Assembly (NCBI GenBank): GCA_002189035.1
Contig: NEEC01000020.1
Location: forward strand, 1,240,001 to 1,304,000
Length of the DNA: 64,000 nt
Source of the DNA: Utricularia gibba
Taxonomy: Eukaryota > Streptophyta > Magnoliopsida > Lamiales > Lentibulariaceae
Reading direction: 5' to 3'
Positions 29,079 to 38,439 of this stretch are shown here, one piece after another. Every line of letters begins with the position of its first letter. Position 1 is the first letter of the stretch. A model generated the notes under the pieces. The model did not search any database. It worked only from the letters and a program-made list of their open reading frames with translations, and was not told where the DNA came from. The position numbers were made by a program, and so were the translations under genes.

Positions 29079-29286
29079 GGAATTTTACACAAAGAGTAAT
29101 ATTTTCAAAATCCATTCACCATCATCCTAACTATATTTGTCATTTTGTACACCTCAACCATTTTAATCATTAAAAAAGTATATTTATAATTTACCATTTT
29201 ATATATTAATAAAATAACAATATTTGTTTACCTCATCTACCCAACCTATCTTAAAAAATTCTCAGGAATGTAAATTATAAATGAGG
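29079..29286 (+). repeat. Left terminal inverted repeat of MULE A
   Basis: Inverted partner of 38622-38830. Diagnostic words include catttgtcattttgtacacc-like text at about 29138-29154 and attttaatcattaaaaaagt at 29160-29180, whose complements occur in order in the right end. Confidence 0.85.
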
Positions 29287-30141
29287 CTTCTTTTTGTAAA
29301 ATTCCCAAAGTTGGAACCGGTCTTGGAATCTTATATTGACATTGAATCAAAAAATGAAGATGGGGGTGTGCAATCAAAACATATCTATTCTTCAAATACA
29401 TATGAAAGTTCTGAAGAAAAAGCTAGTAGTGAGAAGTCCATTAATAAAAATGATATATTATATGATACTGATGAGTCATCTGATGATGGGAGTGATGAAC
29501 TTGATTACAATCCTGATGTTAATATGGAGTCAATGCTTATAGATTCCTTAGTAGAATTATTCGATTTACTTACTATGATGGCACATGTGGAGAGCCTCTT
29601 AAATAAAAATACTTTAGAGATAAGAAATAAATGAAGACAGCTTTATTCTTCTATGCAATTGAAAGATTAAAGCACCCGTTTAAGGTCTACAAATCAAGTA
29701 ATTCTCAATATGAAATTCATTTTTTGCATAGGTAAACTATTGTGAAATGCATGTGGCATGTCAGAGTTATCTTCAGTAAAGTAACACATGTTTGAGTAGT
29801 TTCATAGTATGATGGACCTCATACATGTTTCACTAGTAGTTCCCATTCTACTCGTCATGCGAATGTGCGAACAAATGTCATTGTAGCAGCAATTATGGAG
29901 ACTCTCAAAATGGATCCTAATATTCCTGTTTCTGATGTAATCACATTGATGGAAAATCAACTTAAGACTAAACCAACATACAAGAGACCATGACTTTGAA
30001 TTAAGTGTGTTATTCGAGATTTATATAGCACATGAGAAACCTCGGTGCTTACTTGCCAACATATCTAAAAGCTATTCAAGATGCTACGGCAGGTATTTCA
30101 TATTGTTGTTACTCTACATGTTTGAATAAATATTTAATGGG

Positions 30142-30275
30142 TCATGTTTGGTTTTGGAACATCACGTTTTATTTTTTCATGATAATAGTTCATCACGTTA
30201 CAAAATTATTATATTGGAATATTGCGTTTTACAAATTACTCTATTAGAACATCATGTTTCAAAAATTACTCTAAA
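30142..30275 (-). repeat. Left minisatellite array, inverted relative to the right array
   Basis: Four or five degenerate units built on aacatcacgtttta / acatcatgtttcaaaaatta, about 30-40 bp each. The 22-mer at 30249-30270 is the reverse complement of 36419-36440 with one mismatch. Confidence 0.7.
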
Positions 30276-30530
30276 ATTCAACGAGATGGATGGTGGAGAA
30301 TGAAGCTAATGATAGTTTGATCTTGAGCTTGCATTCAATGCAATGAGATCTTGAGTTTTGTATTCAATTCAATTTAACATTTGTCACTCTTCAGGTGGTC
30401 GGAGCAAATAAAGGTGGTGTGCTTATACTCCTTGAAGAGCTTCTAGAAAAGGAACTTTCATTGAGATTTGTGGAGGTGGACGAGGAGCAAACATGTCTTG
30501 TTTTGAGCAACCAGTGAGATCACCGAGATG

Positions 30531-33184
30531 GACAGTGGAGGAGCTGAAACTAAAAGTGATAATGATATGGGTGATATACCAATATTGGAGGATGATGACT
30601 ATCAAAATACAGACGATGGAATTGATTGGAGCGAGAATGACATTGATAGCAAGCTACAATTTAAAGAATGGAAACTTGTTAAAGCGGAAGATTGGGATTC
30701 TCGTGAGCTTCAAATTGTGCCGTTCATAGTTAGTGCAGATGATCTCAACCGGGTATTCTGTCCTAACTATCCTACATTTCGGCCTAATGATAGTTTGACA
30801 GAAGATTCTATCACGTACATCCCTTGCTGCTACTTGAACTATTTTTTTACTTCTTGAATATAGTATTCTTCAACACGTATTGCTTACAAATTTATAATTG
30901 TAGAGGTGGGATTCAATTTGCTTCAAAGGCTGATTGTACTCTTGAATATAATTGTATAGACGAGGGCTTTGCATTCCACGTGTCCAAAAATAATACACAG
31001 CTTTTGAAATTTGTATGTGGTACTCGGAAAGGTCATGCGTATCAGAAAGAGGGTACTCAAACTAAAGAGGTGATTATTCTTTTTATTGGTATTGTTTTGT
31101 GTGTATTAAATAAGCTACTGATTAGCATTCTTTATTTAGGAGCAGACTGAACAATGTACGTGGTTTGTATTGGTATCTCGTTATAAGCACTCTAATACAT
31201 GGTTGACATCATACATGAATCTATGCCACAAAGAAGATTGCCACCCTATTCGAAAGAACCGTGAGGTAAGATCAAGTTGGATCGCACAAAGATTCCTACA
31301 TAGATTCATTCAAAAGTTTGGGATTACTGTTTCAGAGCTCCATCGTGAGATTTTTTATGCTATTTCTATGGATATAAGTAAGGCCACTTTGCACAGAGCT
31401 CGCAAGAAAGCAAATGAAATTATTTTTGGGAGACGAGTTGAGGAATTTAGTCGATTGAGGGATTATAGGGAGAAGTTTCTCGAGTCAAACCTGGGAAGCA
31501 CCTTTGTTATTGATGCTGAACCCATATCTGACAAAGAAGAAATATTCAAGTCATGCTATATCTGTCTGATTGGTTTACTACAAGGTTGGAGGGCATGTTG
31601 TAGGTGTTCATTGGCATTGATGCATGCCATGTGAAAACATAGGCTGTCGACTTCATATTTGTTGCTGTCGGGTTGGATCCAAACAACGGTACATATTCGT
31701 TTGCATGGGCCATAGTTGGGAAAGAACACAAAGCCAATTGGATGTGGTTTTGGGGGCTGTTGCGCAAAGATTTAAATATGGACAGACTAGATGAGGTATG
31801 CTTCATGTTAGATCGTGATGTCTCTATTCGGGAATCAGTTGCAAGTCTTTTTCTGGGCTGTGAGGTAATATAAATTGCGTTAAGCATTGTCGTTTACAGC
31901 TATATGTGTTAATGAAATGATTGTTGATGTAGCATTGCCATTGCGTCAGGCATATTCAGCAAAATCTAAAAGGGAAACCTGGAGGGAAATTGAATGCTTG
32001 TAATCAAGTTAGAAGGATTGTCGAACAAGGTACTAGAACTGGATGGGAGGCTGAAATGCGGGCACTTATGAAGATGAATCTGAAAGTTTATACCTATATG
32101 TTTCGAATCCCACCAAAGCATTGGTGCTATGTTTTTTTTAGGCATTCTACTAGGTCGGATGCCTTGTTGAACAACATGACTGAGTCATTCAATGCAGCAT
32201 TACTTGGATCACATTCAAAGTCAATCATCACACTATTAGAGGCAATACGGGTCTTATTGTGTGAGCACATAGTGGCACGCCGTGTCAATGATGAACAAAT
32301 GAAGCATATGATTTGCTCGCATATAATGGGAATTTTAGGGGAAGAAGCTAAGAAAGGAATGGTGGGTTGCATCCGTAGTCTCGATGAGATCGAGACAGTG
32401 GACTTGGCAACGAAAGTTTGTAGTTGCGGTATTTGACAGCTAAGAGGTTAGTACGCCATTAATTTATCGGCTTTCCATTTAACATTGTGAAAACATCTAA
32501 TAGTTCTTTGTTACAGGTTTACCATGTAGTCATGCTATGACTGTATTTGACGTATTGGGCAGGCCTTTGCATGCTTTTGTTGACAGCTGCTACTATATTG
32601 AAACATACAATGAGGTTTATGCCTACTCACTTCATGGTGTGCCTGGACCAGCTAGGTGGCCATCAACCACTATGACAGCAATGTTGCCACCTAAGTATAG
32701 TAAAGAACATCGAGGAAGGCCACCTAACCATTGCATTAGGCGATGCTATGAGAAGCGTGCATCCACAAAAGAAAGCAAACGTTTTAGACATGGCAACATT
32801 GTGCCACAGGGATGCTCTTGGTGTGGGCAAATTAGCCACAACACTCAACGTTGTGAGGAGCGGAAGAAATTTGAAGCTAGTTGCAACACTGGAGATACTG
32901 ATGATGGTTCAATAAAGGTAAAAACCTATACTATATGTATATACCATAGTGATGTATTGGGTAACTTGTTTGATCATCATGGCAATGTCAGGTATGCTCC
33001 ATTTTTAATGCACCAGGCCACAAAGCGTGGCGATGTCCAGTCAAACAACAAGCTCGAGCAGCTGCCAAACGAACACGACAAGGAGAACCTCGAGAGACAA
33101 CTCAAGACGAAGAGAGACATATTGATATGCCTACTGAGAGAGCGGGAACTCCACTCGAGTTTGAGGTATTTTAAACATGTATAG
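30531..33184 (+). pseudogene. MULE B transposase, degenerate
   Basis: Read in exon-like pieces: 30531-30800 (acidic N terminus, MDSGGAETKSDNDMGDIPIL), about 30905-31070 (MuDR region, GIQFASKADCTLEYNC), 31141-31600, 31600-31864 (core: FIGIDACHVK, AVGLDPNNGTYSFAWAIVGK), 31933-32446, then 32517-32918 after an intron, and from 32990. The C terminus has a SWIM-type finger (VCSCG then LPCSHAMTV), a CCHC knuckle (CSWCGQISHNTQRC, about 32814-32855) and a second knuckle whose second Cys is Phe (CSIFNAPGHKAWRC, about 32994-33035). Defects: a one-base frameshift near 31600 between GWRACCR and FIGIDACH, TAG at 31640-31642, and TGA at 32434-32436 inside the SWIM finger where relatives have Trp. Confidence 0.75.
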
Positions 33185-33779
33185 GCATGAACATTGTTTG
33201 TGTTTGTTTAACATGAAGGTAAAAATCTTGAAATTGCCGAATTGGCCACAGGTTAGTAGTGGCATCAAAGATGTTGATGTTCCACCCGTCATTCCTAGAA
33301 CACCAGTTTCACCGAAGACCAGTGGAGCGCCAAATGATATGCCAGAAGAGCATGGATCCAGAATTGAGAAGAAGATACATTATGATGCTGTAGTATTTAA
33401 TACTTTTTTCATGTTATTGATAATAATATTGAAATTATGGCTACATAGTCGAATAAAAGACCACGCCATGATGATGAAGTTGGGCCACAAGTGTCGGTAA
33501 AGGCGCGAACAAAGGTAGTTGTCCAGATTGCAATAGGCAATGATTGCAACATGAAAAGCACAATCAAGGACAACCATACACCGCTAAGCAAAAACATTAG
33601 GTCACGAGGTTTGAAGATCCAGGAAAAAAATAAGTGCGCTCCACACTACGTGTCTATGGGATGTTGGATGACATGATGTTCGATTATGCTTTGGTGTAAG
33701 TTAGCATAGTTTATTCTTTTTGCATATGATTATGAGAAGTTAACATTTTAGTCTTTATATTGGTTGTAGGAAAATTGTT

Positions 33780-34620
33780 TGCTCATTTCCGCTTGTGATT
33801 CAAGAAATGCATGAATTCACTAGTTGCCAATAATATGACACTACTGAGATGCGAAGACAAAGGAATTTAGGGCCATTATTTGCATGAAGAAGAACATTTA
33901 CCACCTCATATTTTGTCGTTCCCACTGTTTCGAGGTTAGTATGTCAATGGAGTACAATGGTCAATTTTTAAGGAATAGTTAGCTATTATGTATTAAATGC
34001 AGGGGACATTTTTGGTTGTTAATCATGTGTAACTTCGACTTTGATAATTCGGAGCAGCATTGCATTCTCTACTTAGATTCATTGGGTTCTACCAATATGA
34101 TAGAGGCGAAGGCTGAAGAATTGCGAATGTAGGAATATTTTGTGATTCAAACATATATGTACATATGAGTTAATTATTTTTTTTCCAACATATTCACAAG
34201 TTTATATGGCATGTATACCAGAGTAGGGTCTCAAACTCTTCCATGGATAAGGAAACTGTCAAGAGTACTCCTCTTATTCCAATTAAGGTAAGGCATTAGG
34301 ATTACATGCATTAAAATATTATCTGATTATTGATAACATTCCATGTACCATGCCAACAAGGGCTAACTGAGTGCGGCATTTATGTTCCTTCATTATATCC
34401 GTGGGTTCATGACAGAAGTTCCATGTACTATCACACCTACTTCCGACATTGGTTGGGTACGTGAAGGTTTCAATGACAATGAGGGTAGTTGTTCCTCATA
34501 CAAATCAATTACGTTTTTATTCATGATGCAGATGAGTCCCACATAGTTTGATGAAGAAGACGTGAAACGATTTGCAATGGAAGAAGATTTGATGACATTG
34601 GTTAGACAGGTCAAGAAATG
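33780..34620 (+). pseudogene. Ulp1-like (C48 SUMO protease family) relic inside MULE B
   Basis: Exon-like pieces show the order of an Ulp1 catalytic domain. A piece ending at 33934 (TSYFVVPTVSR) splices at 34003 to GHFWLLIMCNFDFDN, with His codon 34007-34009. HCILYLDSLGSTNM follows, with Asp codon 34076-34078. Further on come STPLIPIK (about 34265-34290) and CQQGLTECGIY with Cys codon 34372-34374, then LHYIRGFMTEVP in the next frame. The H...D...C order and the LYLDSLG and ECG contexts match the family. Frame changes occur in the 34135-34290 part, and there is one extra base between CGIY and LHYIRG (about 34381-34387), so no intact enzyme is encoded. Ulp1 proteins process or remove SUMO; any role for a mobile element is inference. 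Confidence 0.65.
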
Positions 34621-34785
34621 TGAAAAAGTTGATATAAAAGACAGTCATGCGATACATTTTATGTCAAATATGTCAGTTTTTTATTACTTTGGTTTCATTA
34701 CTTTACAAAAAATTAATAGACTTTCATTTGTTAATCTTGAGGGTCGACGTTCAGATCCACCATCATCATGTCATTTTCAACTCTC

Positions 34786-35040
34786 ATAACCCACGTCTGT
34801 GTGCCACGCCCATACGGTATGCATAAACAAGCGAAAAACAACGCATTCGATCCTTGAAATACGTGGGTTATGGGCAACCCACGTCCATGTGCCACGCGCA
34901 TACGATATGAAAAAAGGGAAAAACAACGCATTCGATCCTTAAAATACATAACGATCGCATGCACACGGAAGTGCGTTACCCATAACCCACATCCGTGTGC
35001 CATGCACATACAGTATGACAAAAGGGAAAAAATTGTGTTA
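34786..35040. repeat. Three imperfect tandem units in MULE B
   Basis: Units begin at about 34786 (ataacccacgtctgtgtgcc), 34875 (acccacgtccatgtgccacg) and 34980 (cataacccacatccgtgtgc), each followed by a gcatacg-like word and then aaaaagggaaaaa(caacgcattcgatcctt). The unit is about 90-105 bp. Each pairs internally with cgtgggttatggg-like words and could fold. A related sequence lies at 57310-57385, next to another MULE fragment. Confidence 0.65.
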
Positions 35041-35059
35041 TAAAGCACAAGCAAAAATA

Positions 35060-36331
35060 ATGTGACTTTGTGTTTGAACTGGATAGCAGGACGCTGACCG
35101 AAGAATGGCCCATGGAGTCTCTAAAATTCACCAAATTGGTGAGACACCGATTGAATACTTTGTTGTGCTGCCGAACAGTCAAAACGTGGACCTCAACTAC
35201 TTGAATTTGAGACCCAACAATGGGTCTACGATCTAAATTTTGTAAGTTGGTGTAGAAAATATTCACAAGTTGAGGAAGAAACTTCGTAGTTGGAACAAAC
35301 AATTTATGATGTATCTTAAATAAAAAAAACTAGTCTTTTTACTATAAAAACAACAAAAACTTAGAAATAAAGTGTATTTGGGAGTTGAAAACCTTGTTAT
35401 ACATTTAGTTTGAAAAACTGAAGTTTGTAAAATGTTTTCAAATGTTTTTAACAAACGTTTGTGTGTAAAATGAGAAAATATGGAAAGGTTTGTATACCTT
35501 TTGATTTTTTCTCTTTAATATAATTAATATATTAAATCTAATCAATATGAAATTTCGTATCATTGGATCATGGCTGCTTTTATTTAGAAAATATGTTTTC
35601 AAACAAAAGAGATTTCATAATTTCCTAATTTCATGTGAATTTTTAGCTAAATTCATTATGTATTTAATGCAAAAAGGGAAAAATCATTTTTTAAGTCACA
35701 ATATTTTAGTTATTTTAATTTTGCAGTCAAATATTTTAACTTGTTCAAAATTCAGTTAACAAGTTTACAAATAAACTCAATTTATGGCATTTCGGTCAAA
35801 AAATATTTTAAAAATTATTATAATTTGAGATATATATTTTTAAATAGAATTAAAATTCAATATATATTTTTAAAAATATACTAAATTTTTTAAAATTATT
35901 TTTCTCAATTTTTAATATTTCTTCTATGATACTTTTAATTTTTTTAATAGTTTGAATAATTTTTAAAAAATTTACAATATTTTTTAAAAATGTATATTAA
36001 ATTTTAAATCTCTTTAAAAATATTTATCTCAAATTTTAAAAATTTTAAAAATAGTTTTTAATCGATATGCCATAAATTGAATTTATTGATAAACTTATTG
36101 ACTGTATTTTGCATAAATTAAAGTGTTTGACAGTAAAATAAAAATAGGTAAAATATTGTGACTTCAAAAACGATTTTTCCCATGTAAAAATTTATTTAAA
36201 ATTCAAAATGTTGTCAAAATAATGCATATAATTTGATTAAAATGTATCTTCAAAATGTATATCATAAAAAATTAATTTCGTAATTTTTTGAAGTATACTG
36301 ATTTTTTTAAAATTAAAAAACCAAAATTGTC
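35060..36331. other. AT-rich 3' part of MULE B
   Basis: No gene recognised. The stretch from 35740 to 36110 is built from words such as ttttaaaaat and ends with a partial mirror of its start (ttatggcatttcggtc near 35780; atatgccataaattgaattt near 36065), suggesting another small decayed inverted repeat. Confidence 0.35.
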
Positions 36332-36665
36332 ATTTTTTAAACGTGATGTATTGTTAGAGTAACTTTCTTAAAACGTGATGCACTGGCATTGTAATTTATG
36401 AAACGTGATGTGCAAATGAGTAATTTTTGAAACGTGATGTCCTGTTTTAGTTATTTTTTAAACATGATGCGCCGTTAAATTAACTTTTAAAACGTGGACT
36501 TTTTTGATATTTTTTGTAATGTGATGCATTGTTTTGTAATTTTTTAAACATGATGCATCATTATTGTTAAATTTAAACGTGATGCATTATAGAAGCAACT
36601 TTTGATAAACGTAATACATCAAAAATATGATTTTCCCATATTTTTAAACATGATGCATCATTATT
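36332..36665 (+). repeat. Right minisatellite array (aaacgtgatgcat units)
   Basis: About nine to ten degenerate units of 30-40 bp, each holding aaacgtgatg or aaacatgatgca, separated by T-rich spacers. It is inverted relative to 30142-30275. Confidence 0.75.
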
Positions 36666-38439
36666 TTGCATTAACTTTCATTTATTTTAGGTACTATTGT
36701 TAAATATAATCATTTTCGTACTAACTTGGATGAGGCTATGTTGCATCATGTGTTATGGGCATTTGGACCTTGTATACATGCATATAAATATTGCCAACTA
36801 ATTATCTATATTGATGGTACACACTTGTACTCATGATACCGACACAAGTTACTTATTGCAGTAATTCTTGATGGTGATAGAGTTACTTTTCCTTTGACAT
36901 TTGGAATTGTTGAAGAAAAATTGCTTGAGTCATGGCATTGGGTTTTGAACAACCTAGTGGATCATGTTATCAAGTTTGATTCTCATACTACATGTATTAT
37001 TTTTTATTAAAATGTGGGGATACATAAGGCAGCCAATAGTTTTTTAATCTTTCAAGAGCCACAAGGAGCTCATCGATATTGCCTAAAACATTTATATGGG
37101 AATTTTAGAGCTAAGTTTAAATCAGAGGCTCTTCATAATTTATTCTAGAATGCTGTAATGACATCCAAAAAATGAAAGTTTCATATTTTCATGAATAAGA
37201 TAAAATAAAAAAACAAGAATGCTTATGATTATCTTGCTACGATTTCTAGGAAACGATGAACCTTTGTGTATGATGATGGTTATAGATAATCTATGGTTTA
37301 CTTTTATTATATTGAATCTTGTTATCTTTGATTAGTGATTTTGAATCAAATTGCAGGTGTTGGATTATTAGTACTAATATTTCAGAATTGATGAATAGTT
37401 TATTGAGAGGAGTATGAAGACTTACCATCACAACACTAGTTGAAGTTATATTTGAATGATGTGTAAAGATTTTTTTTTTTTTTTGAAAATCACAAGAAAG
37501 TAAGTGTGTTAATGAAAAAGGATGAATATTGGTTCAAATATGCTATTTCAGCCTATCGAAAAAAGGATAAGAAATCTAATGAGTTCAAGGTTATTGAATA
37601 TGACAATGTCAAGCAAATAGTTATAGTGAATCCAAGACGTCGACTTCATAGGGACACCACATACATCACATCTTTGAAGGCTAGCAAATGTTCATGTGAA
37701 AAGTGGAAGCAGCTTGATATACTTTGTTCACATGCTATTCATGTTCCTTTAATCATTTTTTTTCTTAAAATTATGAGAATAACTTCTTTTTTCTTTTTGC
37801 TGATTTTCAAAGCATTTGAAATGGATGCAAGTAATTGTATTTCATATTACTATGAAATTAGAACACTTGCAAAGTTGTATTCAAAGCAATTTAGCCCCCC
37901 ATTACCTCCAAGTGAAAGAGGAAATGCATCATTTCATTTGATACATAATCCAGAAAGACGTATGAAAAAAATAGCTGCATTCTGTGACAAAACAACTCTA
38001 TTTCTAAGTTGTTTGGATGGACATCGATATTGTAAAAGAGTAAAGAAGTAGAGCAAGTTATATTCTCCAGTATAGAGTGATCGCCATGGTGCACGATTGA
38101 TTTATTAGAGTCCCCAGTGGAAGGATTCATTCCATGAACACTTTTCACCCTTCTGTTAACTCTGTGTCATCAGGTTCTAGAATTGGGGATTGTCGTTCAC
38201 TCTGTAGTGATCAAATTATCTATGGGCACATTGTCTAACACCTGCTCAATCAAAGCCTCATCACAACCCTCTGTTTCCACCAACTCTTCAAAGGAATGGG
38301 TCTTGGTGGATGCATACTTCAGGTATTAATAAAATAGAAAACCTGGAATTTCGTTTTCTCCTTTTTTTGTGATAGGTGAGGAATCAATCAAAACCTAAAA
38401 TCTTATTTTATTCTTAAATTTATTAGAACTCTTCAAAGC

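Follow-up and report, generated by a model that had tools for sequence, protein, structure and literature searches.

A C48 protease domain collinear with the transposase, and under comparable selection, in a Mutator-like element family of Utricularia gibba

MULE B, in a 64,000-nucleotide stretch of the Utricularia gibba genome (the window; contig NEEC01000020.1, positions 1,240,001 to 1,304,000), is a dead copy of a plant Mutator-like element (MULE) of ordinary type. As read from the genomic sequence, the gene from which this copy decayed was probably a single spliced one, encoding a fusion of MULE transposase, SWIM finger, zinc knuckles, linker and C-terminal Ulp2/SENP7-like C48 protease. The element and the parts of this putative gene are as follows.

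30139-36638, plus strand: MULE B, whole element, lying inside another MULE; 3' end uncertain by about 30 bases
30528-33165, plus strand: transposase exons E1-E6, with the MULE DDE domain, SWIM finger and two zinc knuckles; stops and a frameshift
31643-31873, plus strand: core of the MULE transposase domain (PF10551, E 1.9e-5)
33252-33380, plus strand: linker exon E7, phase 0 at both sides; 0 stops in 346 codons across eight copies
33449-33695, plus strand: exon a, linker and start of the protease domain; one-base deletion in the window copy
33770-33934, plus strand: protease exon b; two stops in the window copy
34003-34128, plus strand: protease exon c, with the catalytic His (34007) and Asp (34076)
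34200-34287, plus strand: protease exon d; acceptor site missing in the window copy
34345-34456, plus strand: protease exon e, with a Gln (34354) and the catalytic Cys (34372); acceptor lost and one-base insertion in the window copy
34532-34642, plus strand: C-terminal exon f; one stop in the window copy

The exon model comes from aligning the window with copies L015, L016, L017, L018 and L019, in which in-frame conserved blocks lie between diverged introns; the GT..AG intron ends are intact in the window copy or in the paralogues. The catalytic codons are found where the initial annotation had placed them: CAT at 34007 (GHFW), GAT at 34076 (LYLDSLG) and TGC at 34372 (LTECG). They are spread over separate exons and fall into one spliced frame, the frames agreeing after the introns are removed. 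The three residues are invariant in all eight aligned copies. The Gln at 34354, which sits at Cys minus 6 and is changed in L019, fits the usual oxyanion Gln of C48 proteases. Across nine copies, the joined C48 frame holds 25 stops in 2,429 codons (0 to 5 per copy, stops summed per copy); the other two frames hold 143 in 2,421 and 176 in 2,422. In the window copy, the protease exons contain three stops and two single-base frameshifts and have lost the acceptor sites of exons d and e, so that the term relic, applied to them at the outset, is apt. The transposase of the window copy is also damaged, and this copy is most likely without any function.

The protease had been described as a separate piece 0.6 kb after the transposase. 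Further coding exons, compatible in phase, occupy that supposed gap. The second zinc knuckle is exon E6, and the junctions E5/E6/E7/exon a are all phase 0, with GT..AG ends, in both of the subfamilies described below; from exon a the frame continues into the remaining protease exons. This arrangement makes one fused protein the simpler reading, with splicing and fusion into a single polypeptide being what we infer from genomic sequence. Alternatively, the element could hold the protease as a separate gene that has a promoter and start of its own, as in the KI-MULEs of Arabidopsis but in the same orientation as the transposase. Reports of ULP-MULEs do describe a ULP coding sequence that lies downstream of the transposase ORF (PMC2528002). 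However, we consider a separate gene unlikely here, where coding exons occupy the gap, the passage from E5 to exon a is made through phase 0 junctions in both subfamilies, and E7 is free of stops in its frame over the 346 codons of eight copies.

The identity of the domain was assessed by profile comparison. The window copy, joined across introns with X at the stops, matches Pfam PF02902 (Peptidase_C48) with E 3.3e-5 and 24.3 bits, the cut-off being 20.7. Matches in paralogues reach E 1.5e-6, 2.3e-6 and 5.2e-9, and L017, L019 and the C409 copy score 28-37 bits. Single unspliced fragments of the C48 region gave no match in the Pfam search. The profile search of the region proposed in the initial annotation thus succeeds with the exon-joined frame and fails with single unspliced fragments, and a raw three-frame search would probably have missed the domain. 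A profile built from eight copies was compared with solved structures: it matches SENP7 at E 1e-5 and yeast Ulp2 at E 0.0014, with human SENP2 at only 0.37. On these sequence comparisons the domain is nearest, among solved structures, to SENP7 and Ulp2 of yeast rather than to Ulp1. SENP7 and yeast Ulp2 share the catalytic residues of the MULE B domain, but they are host genes outside transposons and have low identity to it. Elsewhere in the genome, a host ULP or DEN1-type gene may be present at locus L002 (C1:4034418-4034948), where an open frame of 240 residues matches C48 with E 2.4e-8; the nearest listed MULE transposase is about 45 kb away. For the transposase, the window exon scores 25.5 bits against PF10551, slightly below the cut-off of 27.6, and the close relatives on C328 and C409 score above it (39.3 and 37.0 bits).

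A DNA search of the same genome returned two copies close to that in the window, with 90% identity in the protease region, and several that are more distant. At least nine C48 copies are present, on C317 (the window), C304 (32, 193, 417 and 954 kb), C1 (5,572 kb), C409 (458 kb and 796-803 kb) and C451 (4,470 kb); such counts are lower bounds, as the search scores the best candidates only. The copies on C451, on C409 at 796-807 kb and on C304 at 417-423 kb were assembled from search loci and contain gaps. The nine form two subfamilies, about 66-70% identical. In all nine, the C48 domain lies downstream of this family's transposase exons on the identical strand. No C48 domain was detected with the transposase copies at C328:884 kb and C304:294 kb. 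The initial annotation had also proposed a search for intact copies, and none of the nine found is a wholly intact gene; the C409 copy at 796-803 kb has stop-free protease exons, but an insert of several kilobases splits it. Five copies of the family lie within C304:30000-960000, that is, in the first megabase of the contig, which suggests a repeat-rich region, perhaps pericentromeric. Weak C48 matches at C2:3297433 and C375:230255 likewise follow MULE transposases and share their strand, a hint that related MULE families share the layout of transposase followed by C48.

Between subfamilies, before the copies died, purifying selection acted on the C48 domain as strongly as on the transposase. 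By the Nei-Gojobori method, dN/dS averages 0.15 in C48 exons and 0.14 in transposase exons, ratios that are approximate because dS, at about 1.8, is near saturation (intron JC distance, 0.88), and that come from non-independent pairs amounting in effect to one comparison, since one internal branch is common to all. For the window copy against L017, pN/pS is 0.30 (bootstrap 95% 0.24-0.37). Within subfamilies, the ratios are 0.42 and 0.56 for C48 and 0.81 and 0.66 for the transposase, higher values being what the death of copies after insertion would produce. Moreover, the domain is common to nine copies in two old subfamilies and was therefore acquired before the subfamilies split. It was then retained by selection and is a long-standing part of the element family, not something "captured by MULE B" as had been supposed.

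Selection of this strength does not fit an account in which the protease is a passively captured fragment of a host gene (transduplication) that does nothing for the element. Fragments of host genes are frequent in MULEs (PMC13317346, PMC2528002), and every copy found is damaged. Nevertheless, we regard passive capture as very improbable, given that, at near-saturated silent divergence, the amino-acid sequence is strongly conserved between subfamilies, to the same degree as in the transposase, and given catalytic residues that are invariant, whereas a passenger would drift neutrally. Finally, the lack of Pfam matches to single raw fragments might have raised the suspicion that the resemblance is fortuitous, or that the element landed beside a host ULP pseudogene unrelated to it, but both are refuted by collinearity with the transposase at nine loci, inside the element borders, and by Pfam matches of up to E 5.2e-9.

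The borders of MULE B and two inserts within it are defined by the following features.

30142-30275, plus strand: 5' subterminal repeats of about 30 bases each, of the AACATCACGTTTTAAAAATTACTCTA type; inverted match to the 3' array
36275-36638, plus strand: 3' subterminal repeats of about 30 bases each, inverted relative to the 5' set
34787-35513, no strand assigned: probable insert, missing in the close copies L015 and L016; related to repeats elsewhere
35676-36181, no strand assigned: nested MITE-like insertion whose 201-base inverted repeats are 85% complementary, in the 3' part of MULE B; missing in L015

Alignment of MULE B with L015 spans approximately 30142 to 36646. Between the ends of MULE B there is no long terminal inverted repeat, only the short inverted subterminal repeats. 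L015 is bounded at both ends by the 10-base direct repeat TTCTTTTTAT. With about 9 bases taken as the length of a MULE target-site duplication, an exact duplication was sought for the window copy and not found; it has only a degenerate one, in which about 6/9 bases match. The 3' border is uncertain because a piece of subterminal repeat recurs just outside it: an exact 25-base repeat lies at 36541-36565, in the 3' array, and at approximately 36642-36666, just beyond the inferred end. The C48 domain is within these borders and on the transposase strand, consistent with the initial assignment of orientation and of membership in a MULE.

The flanks of MULE B join into a second element, MULE A (29281-30138 and 36639-38051), split by the MULE B insertion; its transposase domain, at approximately 36801-37100, matches PF10551 with E 1e-9. 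Relatives of MULE A on C505, C413, C142 and C451 align across the insertion junction, and two copies read base by base are uninterrupted there, that is, are empty sites. The transposase-protease unit therefore moved as one piece: the whole of MULE B transposed together into another MULE. The sequence at 34787-35513 is, besides the MITE-like one, probably a later insertion into this copy. It contains an 85-base tandem unit and inverted pieces. A related sequence, with 90% identity across 234 bases, is present in L018 downstream of its C48 region, and in the C304:294 kb copy a piece comes after the transposase.

An arrangement of transposase plus SUMO-protease-like domain is already known from other plants. 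In the KI (Kaonashi) MULEs of Arabidopsis, the ULP domain is reversed relative to mudrA (PMC2528002). MULE B resembles the Kaonashi elements and KIU genes in being without long terminal inverted repeats and in keeping the C48 domain in many copies. However, Kaonashi elements have the reversed ULP (PMC2528002) as a separate gene, which a review relates to VANC (PMC13317346), whereas in MULE B the domain follows the transposase collinearly and in the same phase. MULE B thus shows the absence of long terminal inverted repeats but, with nine of nine copies on the same strand, not the reverse orientation, and because the ULP gene of KI-MULEs is reversed, the "architecture of Kaonashi-type MULEs" first assigned to it is not the one it has (PMC2528002). 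A closer layout is that of the ULP-MULEs of melon, rice and grape, for which both direct and reverse ULP orientations are described (PMC2528002, citing van Leeuwen et al. 2007). In some of the families covered there, a C48 coding sequence lies downstream of the transposase in direct orientation, as in MULE B; these ULP-MULEs occur with or without terminal inverted repeats (PMC2528002). Beyond MULEs, the transposases of Ginger1 DNA transposons have C-terminal Ulp1 or OTU domains, and Mutator elements with Ulp1 are recorded from hydra, lancelet and plants (PMC2836005). Ginger1 shares with the putative MULE B fusion a C-terminal protease domain and has been aligned with the Ulp1 domains of Mutator transposases (PMC2836005), but its transposase belongs to another superfamily and is Gypsy-integrase-like.

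The function of the Ulp1 domain is described as unknown in a review that links KIU genes to the VANC anti-silencing genes of VANDAL elements (PMC13317346). From what is known of the protease family, a sequence of events can be proposed. An active element would make its transposase and C-terminal C48 protease as one polypeptide; the protease would cut SUMO, or a related modifier, off proteins at a transposition or silencing complex; and removal of the modifier would help the element to move or to stay expressed. In a more specific and rather doubtful version, the fused protease would act on the SUMO of its own transposase or of silencing proteins at the element, as a built-in counter-silencing device, and would reach its target through the DNA binding of the transposase, without a separate VANC-like gene.

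The description of MULE B is thereby corrected: it has neither the Kaonashi layout nor a domain captured by the window copy. The finding is real and of modest interest. Transposons from several superfamilies repeatedly carry ULP domains, and MULE B is a clean case, in which C48 is collinear with the transposase, is present in two old subfamilies, and is under selection of transposase strength.
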